From the NCBI RefSeq assembly GCF_038396765.1, contig NZ_CP150096.1, forward strand, positions 415,501 through 479,500: 64,000 nt of DNA, read 5' to 3'. This DNA is from Chitinophaga caseinilytica. GTDB taxonomy: Bacteria; Bacteroidota; Bacteroidia; Chitinophagales; Chitinophagaceae. A program made the translations under genes and the position numbers. The notes beneath the pieces are model-generated. The model was not told where the DNA came from. It made no database searches and worked only from the letters and a program-made list of their open reading frames with translations. How positions within the stretch are numbered: position 1 is the first letter of the stretch; every line of letters starts with the position of its first letter. Positions 8,179-31,048 of this stretch are shown one piece after another.

Positions 8179-9159
8179 TCAATGGCTAAAATATTGCATT
8201 ACAATAACATATGACAGCACTAATATGTGTACTGCATTGGCTACCGTATTGTTAGTGATCGACCAGAACACGTTCGCCGCAAACAACGCAACCGGCATCA
8301 CCGCCAGCACCCAGTACGTTGCCGAAAAATGGCCGCTGAACAGGGGCAGCAACGTTGCCACCAGCGCGTAAATCACCACCGTAGCCCAGATCTTCCGGCC
8401 CTGTATGAGCATTTTTTTGAATGTGCGCTGCAGCATCAGCCAGCCGGTCACGAAAAACAGTGCCGTCCCGATCAGCGCCCCCCAAACCTTATAATCCGTA
8501 ATGATCGGCAGGTTTGCCCGGATATTGACCAGGTCGGGGATCATGTCCCAACGGTCCGTCAAAAACAGCCAGGTGCCCAGCAGGTAAAACGGACAAATGA
8601 TACCCAACAGCCCGATGATCCACTCCGCCAGCCTGAACGCCCGCATGATCAGCAGGCTCAGGAACAGCAAAGCCACGAACAACACCGAAGGGAAGTAAAA
8701 CAGCCCGCAAACGCCCAGCGCGAAACCGATGTTGAAAGACACGTCGCGCGCGGAATTCCGCATATACAGGTCGGTTATGCTGGAAAATATCCACAGCATC
8801 ACCGTATTGACGATCAAGGCAGGAGAAAACACGTTCCAGCTCTGCAACAGCGACGTCAGCAGGAGATAGCACATCGCCGTCAGGTAAGTATCCTTCGCGA
8901 AAAGCCGGTGGTTGTTCACGATGCGCGTCAGCAGCAGCGACTGCACAAAAAGCAGCATCAGCGCCAGGAACGTGAAAAACATCGGGCTCGGCCCCACCCA
9001 TCCTTCCAGCCATCCCACCAGCCATTTATAAGCCAGTCCCTCCGACCCGTCTGCCAGATAAAGCGACGGGTGCAGCAGGTAGTAAAACTTGATGAACAGC
9101 ATGTACAGGAACAGCAGCAAGACCGTCAGCGGGTTGCCGGATCTGAAAAACTTAATCAC
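8179..9159 (-). CDS. multi-pass membrane protein, probably DUF6427 family
   Basis: This is a hydrophobic integral membrane protein of 326 residues with about ten predicted helices. It opens MIKFFRSGNPLTVLLLFLYM and has YYLLHPSLYLADGSEGLAYKW soon after. This is the pattern I associate with the DUF6427 proteins of Bacteroidota, whose function is unknown; the number is a recollection. The initiation codon is GTG at 9159. The gene lies 15 bases after the stop of the 507-residue exported protein upstream, so they probably share a message. No catalytic motif is visible. Confidence 0.7.
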   Translation of the reverse strand: MIKFFRSGNPLTVLLLFLYMLFIKFYYLLHPSLYLADGSEGLAYKWLVGWLEGWVGPSPMFFTFLALMLLFVQSLLLTRIVNNHRLFAKDTYLTAMCYLLLTSLLQSWNVFSPALIVNTVMLWIFSSITDLYMRNSARDVSFNIGFALGVCGLFYFPSVLFVALLFLSLLIMRAFRLAEWIIGLLGIICPFYLLGTWLFLTDRWDMIPDLVNIRANLPIITDYKVWGALIGTALFFVTGWLMLQRTFKKMLIQGRKIWATVVIYALVATLLPLFSGHFSATYWVLAVMPVALFAANVFWSITNNTVANAVHILVLSYVIVMQYFSH

Positions 9160-9174
9160 GATGCAAAGGTGGGG

Positions 9175-10695
9175 TTAAAAGTCAATTTTTGCAAAGCAAA
9201 TATAATTCCTGTAAATACAGGGAATGAGCACCGTCCGCCCACTAATTTGTTTGCCATAGCGGGGCATCCAGGTAAACCCTTTGTCCAGGTTCCGGAGCGT
9301 GGGCTTGCGGCTCAGCTTGCCGTCGGGCCCGATCGTATTTTCGGTGAGCACGTACTGCCGGCGTTCCAGCTCGTTGAACAGGAACCGCAGCTCGCTGCCC
9401 ACGTTCACGAGCATATAGCTCAGGTAAAGGTCCGCCCCGTCGTCGAACTGGCTTTTGTGCACAAAGTTGCTGAACGTGAGGTCTCCCTTATCGTCGAACG
9501 CCATGATGGCGATATTGTCGTAATGGTAGCGCGTGCCCTGCCCATCGTTCCAGTAATACGGATTGTAATAGGACGGGCTGTAGGGCGAGTAATAATAGGG
9601 ATAATATCCGCCGTAGCCGCCGTACATATAGTTCCAGCGGTTCCAGGGCTGGCTGCGCGACGAGGTGTAGTAAGACTCCGCAGTCAGCATGAACCCGCCG
9701 TTGGCCGTGTTTACGATCTTGCGGATGAAATAATCGTTGAAAGCCGCGTTGGTGGAGGCATCGCCCTTCGCCTGCTGCTTGAGCTCGGGGGAAAAGATCG
9801 TCGTTTTCTCGAAAATCCGCTGGTTGCTGGCGTAGTCGAGGCGGAGGAGGTACATCCCTTCTACGTTCCCCCGTTTCTGTTTGTAATAGAACGCCGTCAC
9901 GAGGGCCTGCCTGTCTTTATTGTCCAGCTTCATTTTCACTTCGTCCAGCAACAATTCCTTCTTCTCGAACGGGTACGTCTCAAAAGCGTCTGTGGTGGCG
10001 CGTTTCACGATCACGCTCCCGTTCACGATATAATCCCGGCCCGCGCCCCGCTCCAGCTTGGTGAAGAAGAGATCGCCTTCGTTATTGAGATTGAAGTTGT
10101 TGAGGAACTGCTTCTTGCCTTCCATGGGGAGGCTCACCCGGCTGTTGTTGACGAGGTTGAAGGCGCTGTCGTACAGGAAAGTATAGAAAACGTTATTGTC
10201 TTCCTTGTCCTGGTTGATTTTATAAATGAGGATACGCCCTTTGTCTTCAGACGTTTCCACGGAATAGATCTTGTTTTCCTTGGAGTAGAAGCCGATGCGG
10301 GTGGAGTCTACCATCACCGGCGCTTCCATGAACTGCCCTTTCCCGTTGACGCGGCCCACGAAGCTGTACACGGCGTCTTTCCGCTGGAACTGGTAGATCA
10401 TGTACGAAAAATCGGGGTAAGACACGAAGTCGACGCTGATGAGTTTCTTGGGAAGGAAGTCGAGCTTCACGCGGTCGAGCAGCTGCATGCCGTTGTCGTA
10501 CACGGAGATATGGTATTCTCCGCGGTCTGCCTTATATACAAGGATGTTTCCGGAAACCCTGCCTACGATCTCGAATTCGGTGGTTTTGTAATCGTCCCTT
10601 TCCGGTTCGGAATAGGTGACTTTCTGGGCCATGGCAAGGGAAGCGCAGAGCATCAGCGCAAGAAATGGAAGGATATGACGGAAGCGCATGGGCAT
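9175..10695 (-). CDS. exported protein of unknown function with a Tyr/Gly/Pro-rich loop
   Basis: I do not recognise this family. The ATG at 10695 (or 10689) gives a good signal peptide (MRFRHILPFLALMLCASLAM, then AQ). A promoter box at 10756-10763 lies upstream of it, so the in-frame ATG at 10758 is rejected. The mature protein of about 480 residues is rich in beta strands and in phrases such as LLVYKADRG-type blades, and looks like a beta-propeller or similar repeat protein. Near residue 360 there is a low-complexity segment (YGGYGGYYPYYYSPYSP, then SYYNPYYW), probably a surface loop. It precedes the DUF6427-type membrane protein by 15 bases. Confidence 0.72.
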   Translation of the reverse strand: MPMRFRHILPFLALMLCASLAMAQKVTYSEPERDDYKTTEFEIVGRVSGNILVYKADRGEYHISVYDNGMQLLDRVKLDFLPKKLISVDFVSYPDFSYMIYQFQRKDAVYSFVGRVNGKGQFMEAPVMVDSTRIGFYSKENKIYSVETSEDKGRILIYKINQDKEDNNVFYTFLYDSAFNLVNNSRVSLPMEGKKQFLNNFNLNNEGDLFFTKLERGAGRDYIVNGSVIVKRATTDAFETYPFEKKELLLDEVKMKLDNKDRQALVTAFYYKQKRGNVEGMYLLRLDYASNQRIFEKTTIFSPELKQQAKGDASTNAAFNDYFIRKIVNTANGGFMLTAESYYTSSRSQPWNRWNYMYGGYGGYYPYYYSPYSPSYYNPYYWNDGQGTRYHYDNIAIMAFDDKGDLTFSNFVHKSQFDDGADLYLSYMLVNVGSELRFLFNELERRQYVLTENTIGPDGKLSRKPTLRNLDKGFTWMPRYGKQISGRTVLIPCIYRNYICFAKIDF

Positions 10696-20609: not shown

Positions 20610-21740
20610 ATGCATCCCCATCGCTTCACCCTTTCATTGATTTTGCTATTGATTGGCTTCTCGGCTTCCGCAAATGATTCTGCTTATGTAGACATCCGCT
20701 TCACCAGCCCGTTAAGCACCGATAAATTCACCATCACCCTGCACGACGGCATTAACGAACACAAATTAAAAATACCCGGACAATTGACCTGGAAAGGGGA
20801 ATTGTTCAGTCCGTACGGTTTTATTCAGATAGATTATAAAAACAGTGACACCTCCAACATTTTCAAGCGGATATTTTTCCCGAAAGGCCGGGCTACCGTA
20901 GTGTTGACATCCGAACCGGATCCCGGAAAATATTTTTCCGTCGATGAAAAACGTTCGGAGAATATTGTGATGTACGAGGCGTTAGGAGGTGCCGCGATGG
21001 ATGCTTTCGTCAAACCCAGTTTCGATATCTTTATTTCCTTCTACCACAAAAACAAACACCGGCTCGGGGCAGACACTTCGCTGGTAAACCGGGCTTTTGC
21101 GCTGGGAGATTCCGCGGGTCTAGCGGAAATTGCTTTTATCCGGCAGCACCCACAGCTCTACGTCTCGTATTGGACGTTCCTCACACGCATCTACAAATCG
21201 AGACTGCTGAGCAACGCTGAAATCAAGGAATTCTACGACAACAAAATTCCCGCATCTTTCAAAAACACGAAATCCGGTATTTACCTCGCCAATCAAATCC
21301 AGACGAAAATCAATATTTCCACCCATCAACTTTTTCCGGATTTTAATTCAAAAGACCTCAACGGCCAGCCCGTCGTTTCCTCCGCGCTCCGCGGCAACCT
21401 TGTGCTGGTACAATTCTGGGCATCCTGGTGCAAACCGTGTATCGAGGAAATGCCCGAACTGAAAAAGATCAACGAAAAGTACAACGGATCACCTTTCAAA
21501 CTCATTTCCTTCAGCGTCGACAAAGATTCGCTGGCTTGCCGCAAAGCCATCGAAAAACATGCGATGAACTGGACGCAGGTGTTTGGAGATGTTAAGCTGT
21601 ACAACGAGATGTCCTATTATCCCATACCACAACTTTACCTGATCGACAAAAACGGCCACACGATCTACAACAACACGATCACCCGGGATCCGGACTTTCA
21701 GCTGCTGCACAAAATATTATCGGAACAATTAGGGAAATAA
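20610..21740 (+). CDS. TlpA family thiol-disulfide oxidoreductase with N-terminal DUF4369-like domain
   Basis: This is an exported protein of 376 residues. A signal peptide (ending FSASAN) is followed by a beta-rich domain of about 110 residues that resembles DUF4369, a helical middle, and a C-terminal AhpC/TSA-type thioredoxin domain with LVQFWASWCKPCIEEMPELK and a cis-Pro region (YYPIPQLYLID). Such proteins act in the periplasm, often as reductases in cytochrome maturation or repair of secreted proteins. It converges on the nine-gene minus-strand cluster that encodes Cys-rich secreted proteins, with a shared terminator, and may serve it; that link is inference from position. Confidence 0.87.
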   Translation: MHPHRFTLSLILLLIGFSASANDSAYVDIRFTSPLSTDKFTITLHDGINEHKLKIPGQLTWKGELFSPYGFIQIDYKNSDTSNIFKRIFFPKGRATVVLTSEPDPGKYFSVDEKRSENIVMYEALGGAAMDAFVKPSFDIFISFYHKNKHRLGADTSLVNRAFALGDSAGLAEIAFIRQHPQLYVSYWTFLTRIYKSRLLSNAEIKEFYDNKIPASFKNTKSGIYLANQIQTKINISTHQLFPDFNSKDLNGQPVVSSALRGNLVLVQFWASWCKPCIEEMPELKKINEKYNGSPFKLISFSVDKDSLACRKAIEKHAMNWTQVFGDVKLYNEMSYYPIPQLYLIDKNGHTIYNNTITRDPDFQLLHKILSEQLGK

Positions 21741-21799: not shown

Positions 21800-21833
21800 A
21801 AGCCTGTACAACAACGTACAGGCTTCTTTTTTT
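21800..21833. terminator. bidirectional intrinsic terminator
   Basis: AAGCCTGTAC pairs with GTACAGGCTT around a 6-base loop, with T-runs on both sides. It closes the TlpA-type gene and the nine-gene cluster on the other strand. Confidence 0.88.
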
Positions 21834-21871: not shown

Positions 21872-23131
21872 CTATTCTTTCAACTTCATCCTGACGATGA
21901 CCGGGTTGCTGGTGCGGTCGCTTTTCTTGAAATAGTTTTCCAGCACCGGCGGGAACTTTGCCTGTCGGGCTTTTGCCGCGTCCAGCGATTGAAACAGCTG
22001 GAGGGAAGAAATGTGGCTGTACAGCTGTTTCTGGAATATGGCCGCTCCGCCGCTTTTCGCCCCTTCGCTGAACAGCGGCAGGTACCATGATGCTTCGTCG
22101 GGCGTAACCCTGTCGAGGGTAGACAGTTTGCCGGACGCCGTATCGTACACAAAATTGTATTGATATTTGTTCATTGCAGACTGCGAGGCAATGGCATACA
22201 CCGGCACCACCAGCTTGAAAAACAACTTGTTTCCCAGGAAAAACAGGTTCTCTACATTCAGGATCAGTTCCTGGCGAGAGTCGATCGATTTGCGGATGCT
22301 ATCGAGCACCCTCGGATCTTTTGTTCTGAGGATATCGGCGGAGAGCATTCTGCTTCCCGGGAAAACGATCTGCGCAATTTTCACAGCACTGTCGGCCGAC
22401 ACCCGGTAAAGCCCGAAGTCTAGCGGCGTAGATACAAGCGCGGTGCCGTTCTCAATTACTTTGGGCATGGGAATGTAGCCGTGGATCCGGGCAGTAGCCA
22501 GACTGATATCCTCCCGAACGGGCAACAATTGTTTGTACAGCGCGTCTTTACGATAAACGCTCAGGAAATGACAGGGCCCGTTTCCGGGATCGGATGCCGT
22601 ACAGCCAACGCTCTGCAGAAAAAAGTCGGCAGACAGCGGCGTGAGCAATTTGAGCCCGGTGGCATTCCTTTCCAGCTGAAATTCCTGTTTTCTCTCCGGC
22701 AACGGCACGCCCGACAACGTATAGTACATAAAAATAACGGACCGCATGTTGCTTGCAAATTTCATCACTATCACCAGGTTGTTCACTTTATCGTGATGAA
22801 GGTTGCCGTATTCATTCAGTTTCCTGATAAACTTTCCTTTGGTGGAAAAAACGAGGATAGACCGGGTATCGCGGTCGCCGATAACGAAACCACTGTCGGT
22901 AGGCAGCAATTGATGCACATCTCCGAAAATACTTTCCTTCGTTGTTTCCAGCGGGATGTATTCCACTTCACTGAAGTATTCGGATACCATGCCACCATAA
23001 GCCTGATCCGGATCTATCCGGTATTTCGGAACGGTTTGCCCCAGTGCCAGCGTGGCGGGCAGCGCTGCCGCGAAGAGGGTGAACCATAGCCTGGGGAGTT
23101 TGTACATCTGCGGCCGAGCAAAAAGTTTCAT
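21872..23131 (-). CDS. six-bladed beta-propeller exported protein
   Basis: This is a 411-419 residue secreted protein. Starts at 23131 and 23107 are both possible; each gives a signal peptide ending ATLALGQ. The mature part opens with YFSEVEYIPLETTKES and DTRSILVFSTKGKFIRKLNEYG, which is the blade pattern of the BF3164-like/6-bladed beta-propeller family of Bacteroidota. There is no lipobox, unlike the related protein at 23774-24979. It is the last gene of the cluster, 10 bases after the thioredoxin-like gene. The role of these propellers is unknown; binding of secreted partners is the usual guess. Confidence 0.8.
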   Translation of the reverse strand: MKLFARPQMYKLPRLWFTLFAAALPATLALGQTVPKYRIDPDQAYGGMVSEYFSEVEYIPLETTKESIFGDVHQLLPTDSGFVIGDRDTRSILVFSTKGKFIRKLNEYGNLHHDKVNNLVIVMKFASNMRSVIFMYYTLSGVPLPERKQEFQLERNATGLKLLTPLSADFFLQSVGCTASDPGNGPCHFLSVYRKDALYKQLLPVREDISLATARIHGYIPMPKVIENGTALVSTPLDFGLYRVSADSAVKIAQIVFPGSRMLSADILRTKDPRVLDSIRKSIDSRQELILNVENLFFLGNKLFFKLVVPVYAIASQSAMNKYQYNFVYDTASGKLSTLDRVTPDEASWYLPLFSEGAKSGGAAIFQKQLYSHISSLQLFQSLDAAKARQAKFPPVLENYFKKSDRTSNPVIVRMKLKE

Positions 23132-23141
23132 CGTTCAGGTT

Positions 23142-23777
23142 TTACAGGAATTTGTATTGACCGGTCAGGAAATCGTCTATCAGTTCCGGGTATCCGCTAT
23201 TAGGGATAAAGATCCTCCTGATCCTGAGATTTCCGTCCACATAAAATAAATAAGAATAGGTGGGCGAGTCTGCATCTATCGACAAACGGCCCTTTTCGTA
23301 AAAATAAACATCGAAATCCACTTTTGCGCCTTTTCTCCAAACCAGGTAGGATTCAACGTTGGAAAAATCGACGAGTGCCAGGATACGTGTTTCCGGATGC
23401 TCTTTCTTAAACGCCTTCATTTTCTCCACCGTCATATCGGAGCACATGCCGCAGCCGATTTCGGTATACCGGAGGATGAGGGTGCTGCCGCCGGTTCGCA
23501 TCGCAGCAGCGAGGTTCGTGTATACCGCCGCGTCGTTTTCGTTCATCACTTTGCAGGCTGCGAAGCTGGTGTCTTCCAGCCTGAAACCGGTGTATTTATT
23601 GGCGAATGCGATGTTTCCCTCCAGGTACTTAACGATGGTATTGAGATTGGCGATACTGTCTACACTGCTTTGCAGGGAGCGCTCCAGTCGTTTCTTTTGG
23701 CTGTTGCTTTTGTACAGCGTAAAGTAGGAGATGCCGCCGAGCGCAATGATAACGACGAAATAATATATTGGCTTCAT
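23142..23777 (-). CDS. membrane-anchored thioredoxin-like protein with CGMC motif
   Basis: This is a 211-residue protein with an N-terminal membrane anchor (about residues 4-22), a coiled-coil linker (KKRLERSLQSSVDSIANLN), and a periplasmic thioredoxin-like domain. The strand LILRYTEIGCGMCSDMTVEK places Cys109-Gly-Met-Cys112 at the position of a thioredoxin active site, and FYEKGRLSI and SYLFYVDGNLRIRRIF look like the later strands. The classic cis-Pro is not obvious. Its ATG overlaps the stop of the upstream propeller gene by 4 bases, so the two are translationally coupled. Its place beside Cys-rich secreted proteins suggests disulfide formation or reduction on them. Confidence 0.75.
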   Translation of the reverse strand: MKPIYYFVVIIALGGISYFTLYKSNSQKKRLERSLQSSVDSIANLNTIVKYLEGNIAFANKYTGFRLEDTSFAACKVMNENDAAVYTNLAAAMRTGGSTLILRYTEIGCGMCSDMTVEKMKAFKKEHPETRILALVDFSNVESYLVWRKGAKVDFDVYFYEKGRLSIDADSPTYSYLFYVDGNLRIRRIFIPNSGYPELIDDFLTGQYKFL

Positions 23778-24979
23778 TTGAATTTCACTTTGATAAGGTA
23801 AAAGCCTGCAAGATCCAGCCGGCCGAGTTTTTCCTGGAACGGGCTGCCGGGATCGAGCCCTTTTTTGAGCTGGTAACCCGTGGCGAGGGCGAGGAATTCG
23901 TCTGTTTTATGATCGTATCCCATAAACGGCGGCAATACACCCTGCAGCGATTTCCCGTCGGTCATGACTTTGGCGGAAACGGTATCTTTCAGGGTATTTT
24001 TGGAAATGATGCTCATGAATCCGTCGCGCTTATTCCCTGCGAACGACATGGATCCGAAGATGATGTACCGGCTGTTCTCCAGATAAGTGCCGTAAGGAAA
24101 TACGAAACCGCTGAACATTGAAGTATGCATATCCTGGGGCGTTCTCACATGCGAATCAAATTTATCGAGGTGCTCGGTGATGATGGAATCTCCCTGCGCT
24201 GAAGTCATACTTCCCTCCGCATACCGGATATCATAAAGCCTGGCCATTCCGTTTGCATCGATATGATAAATGCTGGGATCGTAATGCTTCGTAAAACGGA
24301 GGCTGTCGCTATGGCGAAAAAAACTGTTGTTGTAGGTGAGTACCAGGATGTTCCGGAACGGTTTTGAATAGGGAAGAAAAGTCTGGTCGACATCCAGATC
24401 GCTGGTGAGGGTATTGAGCAGGGTTGCAGACGGATTTCCAAGGTTGTAGTTGGCAAAAGCCGCATAATTATCTGAATTGGGAATACGCGCCAGGTGGGAA
24501 AAGTGCAGCAATTTCTTTCCTTTCCTGATTTCTTTCAATTGCAAATCGTTGTCGTAGATATTGATGCGGCATTGGGCAAAATCATAAACGATCATGCCCT
24601 TGTCGTCTACATAGGAATCTGTAAAGTTGATCCCGTCTTCTTCCCTGATCCCGTTTTTGGCGACAACCTTCCCGAAAGTACCGTCTTTATTGAAAAAAAG
24701 CGCCTGTTTGCTGCTCGGCGTAAGATTAAAAAGGATATATCCCTTGTCGCCGAAAGCATAGAGCTGAAAGGGAGTGGTAACAGGATAATCTGCGCCTTCG
24801 ATCAACGGAATTACAGCAACGGTATCGATGAGGCCGGCAATATCGGCCGTGTCCTTCTTGGCATGGTTATCGACAAAGATCTGCCTGGGCGAAACGTTGG
24901 TTTCCTTATTGTTTTTACAGGAATAAACGGAGGCAACGAGCAAGAGCAACGTTGCCGGAATAGAAGCTTTGATTCTCAT
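23774..24979 (-). CDS. six-bladed beta-propeller lipoprotein (BF3164-like)
   Basis: This is a 401-residue lipoprotein from the ATG at 24979, with lipobox VASVYSC at about residue 22. An in-frame start 7 codons earlier is less likely. The mature part shows the blade pattern of the BF3164-like family: DTVAVIPLIEGADYPV, DGTFGKVVAKNG, DDKGMIVYDFAQCRINIYD and a final GRLDLAGFYLIKVKFK. Bacteroides relatives often sit next to NVEALA-type small secreted proteins, and here too the next genes upstream encode small Cys-rich proteins. A surface or periplasmic recognition role is likely but not shown. Confidence 0.82.
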   Translation of the reverse strand: MRIKASIPATLLLLVASVYSCKNNKETNVSPRQIFVDNHAKKDTADIAGLIDTVAVIPLIEGADYPVTTPFQLYAFGDKGYILFNLTPSSKQALFFNKDGTFGKVVAKNGIREEDGINFTDSYVDDKGMIVYDFAQCRINIYDNDLQLKEIRKGKKLLHFSHLARIPNSDNYAAFANYNLGNPSATLLNTLTSDLDVDQTFLPYSKPFRNILVLTYNNSFFRHSDSLRFTKHYDPSIYHIDANGMARLYDIRYAEGSMTSAQGDSIITEHLDKFDSHVRTPQDMHTSMFSGFVFPYGTYLENSRYIIFGSMSFAGNKRDGFMSIISKNTLKDTVSAKVMTDGKSLQGVLPPFMGYDHKTDEFLALATGYQLKKGLDPGSPFQEKLGRLDLAGFYLIKVKFK

Positions 24980-25027
24980 ACTTAATTCTGTGGCAATCAC
25001 GTGTTGTCATCAATTCATTACATGAAA

Positions 25028-25062
25028 TCACCCGGGGCGGATGGAATTCCGCTTCCGGGTGA
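25028..25062 (-). other. intercistronic hairpin after the peptide genes
   Basis: Nested stems TCACCCGG/CCGGGTGA and GCGGA/TCCGC form a strong hairpin just after the stop of the 91-residue peptide gene. Only a short TTT follows on the minus strand, so it may act as a partial terminator or as a 3'-end stabiliser that raises peptide mRNA above that of the downstream genes. Confidence 0.6.
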
Positions 25063-25070
25063 CGGTTGCA

Positions 25071-25346
25071 TTAATCGTGCGTTTTAGTGGCAGGGTAGCA
25101 ATGGTGCCTGGTGACAGTCACCATATCGCAATCAACAGCCTGACAGGCAAGTTTCCCCGTCCAAACGCCGTTAAAATCGCATCTCACCGCATCGATGCCG
25201 GTGTAACCGCATTTAAATACGATGGCAGTAAGACAGTCTTCCGTTCCGCCACCACCGCTTTCGTCTGCTTCAGTAAATGAAAGCAGCAACGAAGAAGCAC
25301 CTACGCAGGTAATAGCTAATAAAAAGGGATAAATAAGTTTTTTCAT
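25071..25346 (-). CDS. small secreted six-cysteine protein (B)
   Basis: This is a 91-residue precursor. A hydrophobic signal segment (about residues 3-24) is followed by an acidic, Gly-rich junction (TEADESGGGGTEDC). The mature part has cysteines 38, 46, 56, 68, 73 and 83. Spacing after the second cysteine is C-x9-C-x11-C-x4-C-x9-C, the same as in the neighbouring protein A except for a 4-residue gap in one loop. Shared phrases are CxFNGVWTGKLAC-like. I do not know a named family; it is reminiscent of the NVEALA-type small secreted proteins of Bacteroides but lacks that motif. It most likely forms three disulfides outside the cytoplasm. Confidence 0.72.
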   Translation of the reverse strand: MKKLIYPFLLAITCVGASSLLLSFTEADESGGGGTEDCLTAIVFKCGYTGIDAVRCDFNGVWTGKLACQAVDCDMVTVTRHHCYPATKTHD

Positions 25347-25404
25347 GTAACAATGTTTTGTAAATCAGTTTTTTAATTATCTGGTCTTTCTATACCACGA
25401 TCGT

Positions 25405-25704
25405 TTACCTGGGGGTCATTTCAGAAATAATCAAATTCCCCTCCTTCCTGCATTTATAGTCAGCCATAGCGTCATTCATACAGCCAAAGCTGGTGCAAGC
25501 GATCTTTCCGCCAAATACACCGTTGTACTGGCAAGCCGTCCGCGTTCCGAGCGGCATACCATTATATTCGCCACAGGAAAGGTTCATGGAGGTGTAACAA
25601 TCTTGTGTACCGACACCGCCGCCGGTTTCATCGCCGTCAACGAACGACATAAACGGGACCGCACCCAATACGGCGGCCACAAAGAGGAACGACAATCGTT
25701 TCAT
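25405..25704 (-). CDS. small secreted six-cysteine protein (A)
   Basis: This is a 99-residue precursor and a paralogue of the next gene. The signal segment MKRLSFLFVAAVLGAVPFMS is followed by FVDGDETGGGVGTQDC. Cysteines are at 36, 44, 58, 70, 75 and 85. The junction D-E-[ST]-GGG, the NGV(F/W)xGK(I/L)AC block and all six cysteines are common to both proteins, whereas the tails differ (here KEGNLIISEMTPR). Tandem paralogues with fixed cysteines and variable loops suggest an exported structural, signalling or toxin-like peptide. Its function is not known. It lies 33 bases after a small membrane protein gene. Confidence 0.75.
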   Translation of the reverse strand: MKRLSFLFVAAVLGAVPFMSFVDGDETGGGVGTQDCYTSMNLSCGEYNGMPLGTRTACQYNGVFGGKIACTSFGCMNDAMADYKCRKEGNLIISEMTPR

Positions 25705-25737
25705 CTTGATACTTTTTTTGAGTTATGAAATAAATGA

Positions 25738-25929
25738 TTACGACTTGCTTGGGTTGTTGCTCCCGTTTTTGTCCATCAGTTCGGTCAACAACTTTTCCAA
25801 CAGGGCGCTTTGTTTCCTGGCGTTTTTCATGAGGGATACAAGGCAATAAATAACTACGATATTAAGTGGCAAAGCCAATACGACAGCCAGGATCACCGTC
25901 CAGATGTAAGAGAAGTTATTCAATTCCAT
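25738..25929 (-). CDS. small single-span membrane protein
   Basis: This is a 63-residue protein with one hydrophobic span (IWTVILAVVLALPLNIVVIY, then CLVSLM) and a basic/amphipathic tail (NARKQSALLEKLLTELMDKN). No family is recognised. It is kept as a gene because it has an ATG, a good membrane span, the same strand as its neighbours and tight spacing (92 and 33 bases). It could be an assembly factor or anchor for the secreted cysteine proteins encoded just downstream. Confidence 0.55.
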   Translation of the reverse strand: MELNNFSYIWTVILAVVLALPLNIVVIYCLVSLMKNARKQSALLEKLLTELMDKNGSNNPSKS

Positions 25930-26021
25930 AGTATAGTTTTTTATTGATTTTTGTTGGGTAATGCCAAGTCATGCAGTTATGAAGTTATGCCCGGTCAAAG
26001 TCCGATATTGTCATTGAAAAA

Positions 26022-27881
26022 TTAGTTGTTGAATTTTTCATGGACCAGATCACGGGCGGCCCGCCTGATGCGGAGCGCTGCTGCGGAAGGAATTTTCACG
26101 GGTGTTTGCAGTATCTCTCCGGCGATGCGTTGCGCTGCTGCCGTATCGCCCGTTTGCAGATACAGGCGCATCAGTTCGCCTTTGGGTGAAAGCCTCCCCG
26201 GCAGATAGTATCCCAGCCAGCGCCAATTTTTCTCCGCGCAAGCGTAGTCGCCGGTTTCTTCGCACGCATTCGCCATCGCTTCCACAACGTTCCTGCTGAT
26301 GAAGGTTTTCCGGGCTTCGTTTAATAGTGGCAACGCATCGCCATGCCGGTCATCCGCAGCCAGTTGTATGGCGTAAGCGGCGAGGAATTTCCCATTATGC
26401 TTCAGCACGGGATACCACTGTGCATATTCACTTTGGGCAGGCGCTTTTCCAGATACCTGCAACATGCGCCATTGCGCAGCAGCACGATAAGCCGGCCACC
26501 AACGGACCATCATTACGCAAACCACCAGCGCCCCCACGGCCGTCAGCCATCCCCCACTTGCCTTTTTACCCGCAACAAAAACCCTTTCCAGGAAGGCCGG
26601 CCACGGCCGTTCATCGAGCCGGAAAGCAACTATGCAACAAAACACCAGCAACAGCAGAATTGCATTCACATGCAGCACATATGTCGTAAATCCACAGGAA
26701 AGTATCACGAAAACCGTCAGTTTTATGGCCGTCATCAAATGCGGATATTGCAACGATCTGGCCCGGAACACCAAGATCATTATTATAACGAGACAGGCGC
26801 CTCCCAGCGCCCCCGTTTCCAGCCACCACTGCAGCCACTCATTAAAAAGGAGGAAACTTTCGCCGGCGCTTTGCCGGTAAGCCTCCGGCGCATCAGGGCG
26901 TTCCCTGAAAAAATCGGACTGCCACTGCGGATAATACCAACTGAATCTCCCCAGTCCCGTTCCCGTCCAGAAGTGATCGGAAACATGCCCCCAGGCAACC
27001 TCCGTTTTCATGACACGCCCTATCGCACTGGCTTTCTTCATCCCAAAAAGAAAATAACCAACCGCTGCGGACAACACGATCCCCATCACCACTACCGCCA
27101 GTTTTCCCGGAACGGGTATTCGTTTCCAGCTGTTTGCCAGTTTCCGCTTCCAAACCAGGAACACCGCTGCCGCCAGCAACGCGCCCGCAGCGATCAGCGC
27201 AGTTCTGCTGCCAGATACGATCACCCCGAAAATAACTGCCGCGGAAATAGCCAGAAACAATACAAAACCCGCTTTCCGGACCCAGGCAGGCCAGGTCTCC
27301 CCACCTTTCAGCCCGAGGAACGTAAAGGGCATCATCGTCACCATCAGGCAATTGAATATTCCCGAATTCCGCACGGTTCCCTGCAAAGCTTCCATCGCCG
27401 GAATTTGCTGTACCCGGGACGCGTGCAATTGCATATATCCAATATAGATCTGCACCACCATCACACCAGCCACTCCCGCCGCCATCCATTTCGATATACG
27501 CGCGATGCCACTTGCCGGCAACAGCAGCCCGCAACTGCATAGCATAACAACAACCGCCACCCAACTAAAATGCTCATTGCCGAAATGATAGCTCCCGCTA
27601 CACAAAAACAGCAATCCCAACCCGCAGATCGCCACCGTACAACAAATGCGCGGTAAAACCGGAAGTTCAATCCCTGATACAACACCTCCTGTCAGCAACA
27701 CAGCCATTAGCGGCATCATCACCAGGAGTGCATATTGTCCGTTCATTTCCATCTCATAGTTAAAAGAATACGGATAACAGAAAATGGAATACGCCAACAA
27801 ACCGAAAATTCCGGCAATAGTCAGCCACTCCCGCCATGCGAAAGGCGGCATGCAGGATATCAACCGGCGAAAGTTCCGCAT
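26022..27881 (-). CDS. Wzy/O-antigen-ligase-like membrane protein with C-terminal repeat domain
   Basis: This is an inner-membrane protein of about 619 residues from the ATG at 27881 (a TTG one codon earlier is not needed). About 11-12 helices fill residues 15-455, with the Wzy_C hallmarks VSGSRTALIAAGALLAAAVF and, in the large periplasmic loop, FWTGTGLGRFSWYYPQWQSD and LLFNEWLQWWLETGALGG. The last 150 residues are helical and TPR-like (GDALPLLNEARKTF, ETGDYACAEKNWRWLG, QTGDTAAAQRIAGEIL). The superfamily includes polymerases, O-antigen ligases and PglL-type protein O-glycosyltransferases. No other glycan genes are nearby, so transfer of a glycan to a protein encoded in this cluster is a reasonable but unproven idea. 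Confidence 0.75.
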   Translation of the reverse strand: MRNFRRLISCMPPFAWREWLTIAGIFGLLAYSIFCYPYSFNYEMEMNGQYALLVMMPLMAVLLTGGVVSGIELPVLPRICCTVAICGLGLLFLCSGSYHFGNEHFSWVAVVVMLCSCGLLLPASGIARISKWMAAGVAGVMVVQIYIGYMQLHASRVQQIPAMEALQGTVRNSGIFNCLMVTMMPFTFLGLKGGETWPAWVRKAGFVLFLAISAAVIFGVIVSGSRTALIAAGALLAAAVFLVWKRKLANSWKRIPVPGKLAVVVMGIVLSAAVGYFLFGMKKASAIGRVMKTEVAWGHVSDHFWTGTGLGRFSWYYPQWQSDFFRERPDAPEAYRQSAGESFLLFNEWLQWWLETGALGGACLVIIMILVFRARSLQYPHLMTAIKLTVFVILSCGFTTYVLHVNAILLLLVFCCIVAFRLDERPWPAFLERVFVAGKKASGGWLTAVGALVVCVMMVRWWPAYRAAAQWRMLQVSGKAPAQSEYAQWYPVLKHNGKFLAAYAIQLAADDRHGDALPLLNEARKTFISRNVVEAMANACEETGDYACAEKNWRWLGYYLPGRLSPKGELMRLYLQTGDTAAAQRIAGEILQTPVKIPSAAALRIRRAARDLVHEKFNN

Positions 27882-27905
27882 CAACTTATTTTTAACATAA
27901 TAAAT

Positions 27906-30752
27906 TTATCTCCCGAATTTCCGCGGATAATAAGCCACGGTAAGCATGAAATACTGTTGCAGGATATTGCTGTAAGTGAATACCTGTGCATTGCCCGACA
28001 CTATGTTCGACCAACCTTTATTCTGCCGCAGGATGTCGAGCGCCGAGATCTTCGCCTCGCCTTGCCTTCCTTTCAGAAAACGGCAGCCAAGGCTCGCATT
28101 CCAGATCACAAAATTGTCGGGATTCAACTGGTTGACGCGGTTGCGGTTGAAAATCAGGTTCGTGTTCCAATGGATGTTTACCGGCAACTGCAGCGCCCCG
28201 GAAAACATGGTAGACTGGTTCCTGCTTTTCAGTTCGCTTTGCCCAAATCCTTTCTGAATGCTGTTAAACATCATGCGGCTATGTTCTGCTTTCAATATCA
28301 GGAGGTCTTTATGCCGGAAACTGATATTCACCGACGCCTGGTGACTGGTATTGTCGCTTACGTTCAGCTTGCTGTCGATATACTGGGGATACCGCCCCTT
28401 GTTCATCCCATATCGTCCGCCCGCTTCGAAAGTGCCGGATCTGGTCTGATACGCCTTCCTGATTTCCGCGCTGCCGCTGGCACACCGCTGTCCGTCGATA
28501 TTAACGGCATACCGGGTGCTGACGCCCGAGGCGTTGTAGAGCAAGCTGTCGGAAAAGTAATTATCCGTTTGCCCCGCGGCCAGGTTCACCCGCGCATTCC
28601 ACGGATTCTTCGGCTTTCTCGAAGTGTAACTGTACCCGGCGGTCAATTCCCTGACATATTGCGGCCGGAGTTCCGGATTACCTTTCAGGACCTGCCAGAG
28701 ATCGGCGCTATCGGTCAGCGGCGCCATCCTGCCGATTTCCGGATAGTTTGCCTGGGTGGAAAAAGCAAGGCTGTAGCTGGTTTCATGCAGTCCATATTGA
28801 TGGTTGGTATGCGTGAACGATGCCTGCGGGAGGAAACGGGAATAATGATAGGATATGTTCTGGATAGGCTGATCCGCGTTGCTTTGCAGACCGTAATATT
28901 GTTGTTGCAGGTTTACGTGGATGGATGTGGTTTTGTTGTAGCGGTTAGAAAGATCCTTGCCGAAACTTCTCGACAGGTTGAGGGCCGGTGTGAAATTGCT
29001 GGTGTTTTCATGCCGGGTGTTCGTCAGAAACGGGTTCACCTGGAATTTGCCATCGGCCGACCGCTTGTCCAGGATACGGTCGAAGGCGCTTTTGCTCCCC
29101 AGATTGTAATTGGCAGAAATTCCTATTCCGATCCCCGCCAGGCCCGCGCGGTGGAAAATAAGGCGTTTAAGCCCGGGATAGCTGGCTCTTAGTACGTGGC
29201 TGCTGTTTCGCCCGTCTTGCCTTTCATACAGCCTGTCGTATTTTCTGTTAAGCAAGGGGTCGGTGGCGGAAGTAAATTCCGATTTCGTGGCGGCGTTCCC
29301 GGATTGCTCTTCGGCGCTAAATAGATATCCGAGCGTAAACGCACGCGAAACCCTTCCCTGCCGCGTATTATCCGCTATCATGATGTTTGCGCGGTTCTGA
29401 AAATCGAAGCCTGCGGTGATGCGCGACACTTCCATATTCCGCTCCGTTTGCGACACGCTGTTGCCGAGCAGGCCCACATCGGTTTGCCGCCGTTCCGATT
29501 CATCATTGTAAACCTGGTGCGTGTTCCGGCCTGAATAAGTTGCATTTACGTTCCATTCCTGCAATTCGGTACTTTTATGGTAAGCGGCATTTGCGTTACG
29601 GGAAGTACTGTTCTCCTTGGCCTGTGATCGGGTGGTGGCGGTCAGCAACGCATCGCTTTTCAGGTAGGTGTTTTCCACAGACCGGCTTTGGATATTCCTT
29701 CGCTGATCGTCGTAGAAGAAATCTCCTTTGAGCCGGTTTATTTTTAATGGTTTGAAATCCGGTTCCATATCATATTGCAGCCTGGCGCCCGCGGCGATGG
29801 CATTGTTACTTCCGCGCATCCGGAAATCGCTCTGGTATTGCGTCCCCACCCCTTCGCCCTGGAATGTGCTGCTCTTCAGTAACATTTCCGTTCCGGTGGC
29901 GATCTTGTTGATATTGTTGGCCGCTCCCACGAGGCTCAACTGGAGCTTTTCCGTGTATCCGCTGAGCATGCCATCGGCAGTATATCTTTCCCCGGTACCG
30001 TATCCGCCGCCCACCTTTCCGAAATACCCGACACGCTTATCCGGCTTCAGGCGGATGTTGGCTGAAAGTGTGGAATCCAGCGGGTTGCTGAGGTTGTGCT
30101 GCCGGTAGACCTGAATTTTATCGAGCGCGTTTTTGGGCAGGTTTTGCGTGGCAATGGCAGGATCCTGGCTTCCCATGAACGGCTTTCCCTCTACCAGCAC
30201 CTGTTGTATTTTTTTACCGTTGTAGGTGATGTCTCCGTCTCCCCACACCGTGAACCCCGGCAGTTTCCTGATGAGGTCTTCCGCCGTGGCGCTGCTATCC
30301 AGCCGGAACGCGTCAGCATTGAATTCCAGCGTATCGCCGTTCATCCTGACGGGAGCAATGGCCATTACCGTCACCTCCTTCAGCATCCCTTTATTTTGAT
30401 GCAGGAATATGGTCCCGAAATCGAACTGCATGCTTTCCCCGATCCTGAACGGCACTACGAAAGGCGTGTATCCAAGATGGGAAACCACCAACCGGAGGGC
30501 CACGTTGCCGGGAAGTGCCGGCAACACAAATTCGCCAAACCGGTCGGGTAGCGTGAATTTCACGAGCGAGGAATCGGATTGCCTGTACACCGCAATCGTG
30601 GCCGTGGGCAGCATATAATTATATACCGAGTCTTTCACCTTTCCGGTTATCTTTCCCGCCGGCGCCTGCTGGGCAAAAGCCAACACCGCCATATGCAGAA
30701 ACGCTGCCACCAAAGCGAATAGCCGGCTTCCGGTTTTGAACCCCTTCTTCAT
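27906..30752 (-). CDS. outer membrane beta-barrel protein with carboxypeptidase-like domain
   Basis: This is a 948-residue TonB-receptor-like protein. A signal peptide ends in LAFAQ. A carboxypeptidase-regulatory-like fold (about 33-120) begins KITGKVKDSVYNYMLP, then a plug-like domain contains ATAEDLIRKLPGFTVWGDG and IQQVLVEGKPF. The remaining 700 residues are a repetitive beta-barrel ending in TVAYYPRKFGR. It resembles the outer-membrane-beta-barrel branch rather than SusC (no SusD partner, no SusC plug signature). It overlaps the HTH gene by 4 bases and precedes the Wzy-like gene by 24 bases. Import or export of a ligand tied to the small cysteine proteins is a possible role. Confidence 0.85.
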   Translation of the reverse strand: MKKGFKTGSRLFALVAAFLHMAVLAFAQQAPAGKITGKVKDSVYNYMLPTATIAVYRQSDSSLVKFTLPDRFGEFVLPALPGNVALRLVVSHLGYTPFVVPFRIGESMQFDFGTIFLHQNKGMLKEVTVMAIAPVRMNGDTLEFNADAFRLDSSATAEDLIRKLPGFTVWGDGDITYNGKKIQQVLVEGKPFMGSQDPAIATQNLPKNALDKIQVYRQHNLSNPLDSTLSANIRLKPDKRVGYFGKVGGGYGTGERYTADGMLSGYTEKLQLSLVGAANNINKIATGTEMLLKSSTFQGEGVGTQYQSDFRMRGSNNAIAAGARLQYDMEPDFKPLKINRLKGDFFYDDQRRNIQSRSVENTYLKSDALLTATTRSQAKENSTSRNANAAYHKSTELQEWNVNATYSGRNTHQVYNDESERRQTDVGLLGNSVSQTERNMEVSRITAGFDFQNRANIMIADNTRQGRVSRAFTLGYLFSAEEQSGNAATKSEFTSATDPLLNRKYDRLYERQDGRNSSHVLRASYPGLKRLIFHRAGLAGIGIGISANYNLGSKSAFDRILDKRSADGKFQVNPFLTNTRHENTSNFTPALNLSRSFGKDLSNRYNKTTSIHVNLQQQYYGLQSNADQPIQNISYHYSRFLPQASFTHTNHQYGLHETSYSLAFSTQANYPEIGRMAPLTDSADLWQVLKGNPELRPQYVRELTAGYSYTSRKPKNPWNARVNLAAGQTDNYFSDSLLYNASGVSTRYAVNIDGQRCASGSAEIRKAYQTRSGTFEAGGRYGMNKGRYPQYIDSKLNVSDNTSHQASVNISFRHKDLLILKAEHSRMMFNSIQKGFGQSELKSRNQSTMFSGALQLPVNIHWNTNLIFNRNRVNQLNPDNFVIWNASLGCRFLKGRQGEAKISALDILRQNKGWSNIVSGNAQVFTYSNILQQYFMLTVAYYPRKFGR

Positions 30753-31048
30753 CCGCCGGCACTTTCTTCTTCAAATGATGTAAACCCTGCACTGAAACAA
30801 CCTTTCACCCTGAAGTAGTAGCTCTTGCGCTTCCGGCAGTAATCGACCGGCGCGCCCAGTTGTTTCATCAGGTCGATGTACCGGAGCACCTGCCGCTCAC
30901 CGATCTTCAGTTTCAATGCGAGTTCTTTCGGTGTGCCGGTATCGGATTTATTGATACAATGGCTGATTTTCTGCAAATAGTGTATGACTTTAATGACATG
31001 CATAAGCACAATTTTGACCTTCGGGGTATAGCGGCCGATCGAAGGCAT
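30749..31048 (-). CDS. small HTH protein
   Basis: This is a protein of 84 to 99 residues, depending on whether the ATG at 31003 or 31048 is used. The core reads TPKELALKLKIGERQVLRYI, followed by DLMKQLGAPVDYCRKRKSYYF. It is a winged helix-turn-helix like the N-terminal domain of WYL/DeoR-type regulators, but with no effector domain. The stop overlaps the outer-membrane protein start by 4 bases, so it is the first gene of the nine-gene cluster and probably its regulator. Confidence 0.75.
   Translation of the reverse strand: MPSIGRYTPKVKIVLMHVIKVIHYLQKISHCINKSDTGTPKELALKLKIGERQVLRYIDLMKQLGAPVDYCRKRKSYYFRVKGCFSAGFTSFEEESAGG

Follow-up and report, generated by a model that had tools for sequence, protein, structure and literature searches.

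A Chitinophaga caseinilytica gene cluster from a widespread, uncharacterised Bacteroidota gene set with a probable role in making and glycosylating tiny disulfide-rich secreted proteins

The 64,000-nucleotide stretch of Chitinophaga caseinilytica DNA analysed here (the window; its source assembly is a single 6.52-Mb contig) contains a cluster of nine minus-strand genes, numbered 1 to 9 in the direction of reading, that is part of a widespread Bacteroidota gene set, uncharacterised so far, whose probable role is the production of tiny disulfide-rich secreted proteins and their modification with sugar. The explanation we favour, to which we give about an even chance of being right, is that the cluster encodes a periplasmic system devoted to small secreted proteins, which it oxidises, probably glycosylates and hands to an outer-membrane barrel or, in Bacteroidales, to an RND pump. 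Genes 5 and 6 would yield two small disulfide-rich proteins that are exported by Sec and matured in the periplasm, where the membrane-tethered CxxC protein of gene 8 would form or correct their disulfides. Gene 3, as a dedicated protein glycosyltransferase, would move sugar from a lipid-linked donor onto the small protein or onto a partner protein of the same cluster. At the outer membrane, the product would be carried or held by the barrel of gene 2 together with the propeller usually found with it (gene 9) and the gene-7 propeller lipoprotein, and gene 1 would be the regulator. The genes, their recurrence, the predicted folds of the sugar-transferase slot and the replacement of one transferase family by others are observed, and from these Sec export, disulfides, sugar transfer and its acceptor, the outer-membrane step and the biological role are inferred. 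More tentatively, such clusters may represent an undescribed class, spread across Bacteroidota, of secreted disulfide-rich glyco-peptides, in which every member has a membrane sugar transferase to itself, of one of at least two distinct folds, gene 3 being of a His-less, TPR-bearing WaaL type.

A sequence-only reading of the window had proposed that the genes build one system of export, oxidation and display or sensing. Export, display or sensing may be among its roles, and that it is one system is supported by the co-occurrence of the genes in other genomes, seen with two anchors (genes 3 and 9) and against control loci. All genes but gene 4 recurred together elsewhere (e.g., L016, L029, L032 and L117). 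With gene 3 as the anchor, a match was present in 11 of 147 genomes of the family, the own genome included. In stretches of ~20 kb the set was present in Filimonas effusa (L016), in Chitinophagaceae bacterium DXS (L017, the same locus as L031) and in another genome of the genus (L018). Full or partial versions were found in Filimonas, Niastella, Chitinophaga, Paraflavitalea, Pedobacter, Sphingobacterium and metagenome-assembled genomes, with weaker gene-3 relatives elsewhere, several of them adjoining transglutaminase-profile proteins. A scan of named genomes with gene 3 produced 16 loci. Seven of these (L028-L032, L038 and L041) held small Cys proteins, a propeller, a thioredoxin-like or MauE protein, a barrel and the Wzy-like protein together; an RND pump replaced the barrel in Paraflavitalea (L037); and the three Sphingobacterium loci (L034, L036 and L039) had propeller, redox protein and barrel, with no small Cys protein recognised adjoining. 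Two loci (L033 and L042) lay close to contig ends, and three (L035, L040 and L043) were without the gene set.

Across 17 distinct loci in which the Wzy-like protein scored at least 450 bits, a 9.5-kb radius included a propeller in 14 (all but L035, L040 and L042), a thioredoxin-like or MauE protein in 13, a barrel in 14 and, by filter, a small Cys protein in 11; the small-Cys matches of L035 and L036 are doubtful, and those of L028 lie outside the radius. The corresponding figures for 20 control regions, taken out of ~38 matches to other Wzy_C proteins, were one, none, none and three, with a transglutaminase in one; some profiles were seeded from loci that were also counted, and one control region (L078) itself scored 130 bits with the Wzy profile.

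The second anchor, gene 9 (21872..23131), encodes a six-bladed propeller of 419 amino acids with a signal-like N-terminus (DUF5128, 2.3e-14), and was matched in 31 of 79 genomes of the genus, the own genome included. A member of the gene-2 barrel family (gene 2: 27906..30752, 948 amino acids; OMP_b-brl_3 at 1.9e-12, with an N-terminal CarbopepD_reg-like part that matched CarbopepD_reg_2 below threshold) lay near gene 9 in all 20 Chitinophaga gene-9 loci, and the small-protein set was present in ten. The sugar-transferase slot was occupied in nine of the ten loci with the set versus one of the ten without it (10/11 versus 0/9 when L121 was counted by hand), a comparison whose independence the Fisher test overstates, as L118, L119 and L123 are near-syntenic relatives. 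In Chitinophaga loci of the small-protein type that lacked the Wzy-like protein, other sugar transferases stood in place of gene 3 in six of seven (L121 by hand). One of these replacement families was modelled with an OST/PMT/ArnT-type fold, the predicted structure being closest to protein glycosyltransferases and ArnT, and in L126 such a protein is accompanied by a PgfS/ArnC-like donor synthase. A search of the own genome for a PMT-type match was empty, although it was run without a positive control. The notion that genes 2 and 9 are exclusive to this system was rejected, the pair also occurring without the small-protein set.

The constancy of that pair, even where the remaining genes are missing, is what would be expected if the cluster were an uptake system of the SusCD/RagAB kind, in which the barrel had the small Cys proteins as redox or metal-binding partners, with the Wzy-like and thioredoxin-like proteins only assisting assembly; SusD-like proteins near the barrel in L028 (the same locus as L115) and in L117 point the same way. 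We hold this to be very unlikely, as it leaves unexplained why the transferase slot tracks the small proteins (9/10 versus 1/10).

Gene 3 (26022..27884; 619 amino acids from the ATG at 27881) is central to the favoured explanation. The sequence-only reading had left the job of this Wzy-like membrane protein open, and our specific best reading of it is a sugar transferase. Its predicted structure comprised a WaaL-type fold and a C-terminal TPR domain, and in Pfam it matched Wzy_C at 2e-15 and TPR families below threshold; a PDB profile search with gene 3 had TPR proteins as its sole matches. A WaaL-like fold with a Wzy_C domain and two donor-binding arginines characterise the PglL/PglS/TfpO class of O-oligosaccharyltransferases, and both arginines are kept in the gene-3 family. 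In an alignment of 67 family members with 19 control Wzy_C proteins (control region L084 had none at its centre), the column of Arg226 (27204..27206) was Arg in 67/67 and 18/19, and that of Arg289 (27015..27017), the second donor-binding position, in 66/67 and 17/19, the roles of the WaaL/PglL residues being taken from the available part of PMC3643930.

A WaaL fold with its donor arginines retained would fit any lipid-linked sugar transfer, and would also suit a Wzy-like protein that builds a surface polysaccharide or anchors it, in a layer whose structural parts would include the propellers and small Cys proteins in unglycosylated form. This we consider unlikely: no recurrent polysaccharide genes were noticed in the gene lists, though no search was aimed at them, the regions of other Wzy_C proteins were without the gene set, and the modelled fold of the replacement family described above is nearest to protein glycosyltransferases and ArnT. 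Members of the gene-3 family were also seen in other company. The own genome has a second relative, 30% identical (G000:C1:5718167-5719876; L015 8006-9883), whose neighbourhood holds a transglutaminase-profile protein and a large secreted lipoprotein but none of the other cluster genes. In L035, a lipoprotein with a Tae4 amidase domain (8352-9797; PF14113, 1.4e-18) lies beside a gene-3 relative and a transglutaminase-profile gene, and thus further secreted proteins may be clients of the Wzy family. Among the transglutaminase-profile proteins, that of L016 (6678-8630) carries an F5/8 type C domain (PF01841 and PF00754), and that of L052 (4568-6526) has this domain as a sub-threshold PF00754 match only.

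The putative substrates, the products of gene 5 (25405..25704; linker DETGGG) and gene 6 (25071..25346; linker DESGGGG), each have six Cys residues located after the signal region and an acidic-Gly linker, and are 41% identical to one another across residues 1-85. A homology search with gene 5 by itself matched, apart from gene 5, a single named relative (79%), which is a hypothetical protein of C. caseinilytica, and profile A6 revealed no copy in the own genome beyond genes 5 and 6. In an alignment of 14 chosen small proteins the start Lys, Glu26, Cys36 and Cys44 (gene 5 numbering) were invariant, with a Gly-rich linker between the Glu and the Cys pair; members outside this alignment, such as those of L017 and L030, were without such a linker. 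An even number of Cys residues was present in 18/21 Wzy-type and 7/7 PMT-type small proteins, the lists behind these counts and the alignment being hand-picked. A conserved Ser/Thr following the conserved Glu was considered as the acceptor and found no support, several linkers having none. Gene 8 (23142..23777; 211 amino acids) carries a CGMC motif (23442..23453), both Cys of which were invariant in 12 aligned relatives. Its family profile matched an uncharacterised thioredoxin-like protein (1.8e-4), DsbC (7.4e-4), StoA (0.0076) and ResA (0.19 to 0.8), so that motif and profile together place it with thioredoxin-like proteins of the TlpA/ResA/DsbC kind, although as a single sequence it had no Pfam match. 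The oxidation role suggested earlier gained indirect support from the CxxC thioredoxin-like or MauE proteins of the related clusters.

The sequence-only reading had also noted that BF3164-like propellers occur with NVEALA-type small proteins in Bacteroides, a link that was confirmed and made stronger by the finding that, in Bacteroidales, relatives of the Wzy-like protein itself adjoin NVEALA genes. NVEALA (PF14055) was rare, with matches at E 0.001 in three of 247 phylum-sample genomes, one of them above the family cut-off. The locus from that genome (L052) holds NVEALA peptides, propellers, a thioredoxin-like protein, signal peptidase I, a transglutaminase-profile protein and a gene-3 relative. 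Among 121 genomes of its family, 25 had NVEALA and 40 a gene-3 relative of at least 100 bits, the latter being present in 20/25 genomes with NVEALA versus 20/96 without. Within the NVEALA genomes, 16 of 39 gene-3 relatives lay within 10 kb of NVEALA versus 0.77 expected by random placement (the count omits G472:C7, a 109.8-bit match to the remaining half of a gene that it already includes), and none of 27 other Wzy_C proteins from 17 of those 25 genomes did so (one partial gene-3-type match, G418:C1, being left out). The 21 Bacteroidales loci read (L052 and L055-L074) were chosen largely for closeness to NVEALA, and therefore their NVEALA counts are not evidence. NVEALA genes lay close to propellers as well as to the gene-3 family: in the 16 NVEALA-bearing loci there were propellers in 13, RND/HlyD/TolC genes in 11, signal peptidase I in 10, a transglutaminase in 12 and a thioredoxin-like protein in five. 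RND pump genes accompanied the gene-3 relative in L055-L058, L062, L064, L066, L067 and L070-L072, as in L037. Genes 5 and 6 themselves had no Pfam NVEALA match (E up to 1), nor did the own genome at E 0.001, and the word NVEALA was not found in the open-access PMC papers searched.

NVEALA-type proteins have a motif that ends in ALA ~20 residues past the hydrophobic stretch, and signal peptidase I is concentrated at NVEALA-bearing loci (10/16, versus 2/5 others of that set, 1/30 Wzy loci of the Chitinophagaceae set and 1/20 further loci), and thus a dedicated peptidase may cut these leaders at the ALA end. In one locus, L067 (G460:C2), NVEALA-type small genes (seven by profile) form an array in which the leaders are nearly identical and the Cys-bearing tails vary. 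Products that are small and variable, share a conserved linker and often come in several copies, together with the genes for an RND pump, signal peptidase I and transglutaminase-like proteins found near NVEALA in Bacteroidales, would be at home in a system that makes a secreted peptide for antibacterial action or signalling (a bacteriocin or pheromone), its modification and export being co-encoded and glycosylation incidental or absent; a radical-SAM protein in L058 (12161-13174) and a SPASM-domain protein in L061 (6366-7385) also accord with it. Against it, no gene was recognised as conferring immunity, no activity is known, and barrels of the gene-2 type are better known from import; we regard this alternative as improbable in its own right, and it is compatible with the favoured explanation rather than exclusive of it.

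Several observations weigh against a dedicated glycosylation system. Synthesis of a donor sugar is not encoded by any of the nine genes. Of the 67 aligned gene-3 family members, none has the WaaL/PglL catalytic His, its column (346) being Phe in 54, Tyr in nine and Leu in four; the residues that follow (Asn347-Glu348 in gene 3, 26838..26843, directly after Phe346) are Asn in 64 and Glu in 55 or Asp in eight, and this pair may stand in for the His. Loss of the His is special to the family only in part, since 11 of the 19 controls have Asp there and four have His. Gene 3 also had no PglL_A or Wzy_C_2 match in Pfam (E up to 1), features of the PglL and PglS classes only; TfpO and TfpM are likewise without both, according to the part of PMC12645811 available. 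The NVEALA-type proteins have an even Cys number in just 25/35. As to the acceptor, the motif known from O-glycosylation in Bacteroidota is D[ST][AILVMT]. It was rejected as an acceptor mark, being found in 1/21 Wzy-type, 0/7 PMT-type and 4/35 NVEALA-type proteins, and any acceptor site must therefore be a different one. L133 has the small-protein set with no recognised sugar transferase, and the barrel-propeller pair was without the set in 10 of the 20 gene-9 loci by filter (nine with L121 by hand), three of those ten (L119, L122 and L129) having a small Cys open reading frame (ORF) by filter with no partner and no transferase. Lastly, the 20 further Bacteroidales gene-3 relatives (L095-L114, the best-scoring remaining matches) had NVEALA in none, a propeller in none, small Cys proteins in two, a transglutaminase in seven, RND genes in three and signal peptidase in one. 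The Wzy family is therefore broader than this system; a constant tie between the family and small Cys proteins is rejected.

As to layout, all nine minus-strand ORFs were present in the window sequence, and the earlier account of gaps from -4 to about 92 bases was accurate, the spacings from gene 1 to gene 9 being -4, +21, +92, +33, +58, +70, -4 and +10 bases. The second becomes +24 if gene 3 starts at its ATG at 27881, and the sixth +91 with the ATG at 24979 as the start of gene 7. Gene 7 (23774..25000; 402 amino acids from that ATG) encodes a six-bladed propeller (DUF5128, 2.3e-11) with a lipobox-like Cys. Gene 1 (30749..31048; 99 amino acids) matched HTH_11 weakly (E 0.0015, below the cut-off) and has HTH-profile relatives in L016, L029, L032, L040, L116 and L117, the profile having been seeded from the first four. 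Gene 4 (25738..25929) encodes a single-span protein of 63 amino acids to which none of the ORFs called in the other loci was related; its membership, as originally listed, was not upheld and it is probably outside the conserved set. Genes 4, 5, 6 and 8 belong to no convincing Pfam family. A convergent gene (20610-21740, plus strand), encoding a TlpA-like AhpC-TSA/redoxin protein, closes the run. Between it and the cluster lies a stem-loop with a T-run (21800..21825, called on the plus strand), a possible terminator of a site class at chance level: the region held 13 terminator-like sites versus 11.3 expected, and seven promoter-like sites versus 11.0.

Among the titles and beginnings of abstracts listed in open-access PMC, there was no earlier description of the gene set. 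The oligosaccharyltransferase and ligase of Bacteroidota O-glycosylation "remain undiscovered" in the words of the available part of a 2025 review (PMC12871550), which is why the gene-3 candidate matters. If the more tentative, phylum-wide reading holds, gene-3-type enzymes would rank with the first protein glycosyltransferases identified in Bacteroidota. The related loci offer candidates for sugar-attaching enzymes of a type that the phylum has so far not yielded. The clusters are compact candidates, with small secreted proteins, one transferase, one redox partner and one exit barrel, and would give a first functional frame for NVEALA-type peptides.

Comparison with known systems sets the cluster among several partial likenesses. 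Glycocin enzymes are soluble cytoplasmic glycosyltransferases, whereas the candidate enzyme here is a membrane protein, and here no activity is known. The products are more alike, glycocins being small, disulfide-bonded, glycosylated secreted peptides (PMC6405829 and PMC12457901, as far as available), as is proposed here. The likeness to Pgf- and PMT-type O-glycosylation is confined to variant loci, in which proteins with OST/PMT/ArnT-type models, and in L126 a PgfS/ArnC-like synthase, replace gene 3. With the groups of NVEALA (PF14055) and TolB_like/BF3164-type propellers (PF15869), the cluster shares small secreted proteins that contain Cys residues and an acidic-Gly linker, propeller lipoproteins, thioredoxin-like proteins and the gene-3 family nearby. 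NVEALA loci differ in their long leader ending in NVEALA and, often, in signal peptidase I, transglutaminase-like and RND genes, in place of which the window cluster has the barrel-propeller pair. The TfpO/PilO-pilin, TfpM and PglS-ComP pairs, as described in the accessible parts of their literature, likewise have the gene of a small secreted protein next to that of a WaaL-fold membrane enzyme, and both donor arginines are kept by gene 3. Compared with those pairs, gene 3 lacks the catalytic His and ends in a TPR domain, its likely substrate is not a pilin but a small disulfide-rich protein, and the cluster adds thioredoxin-like, barrel and propeller genes.
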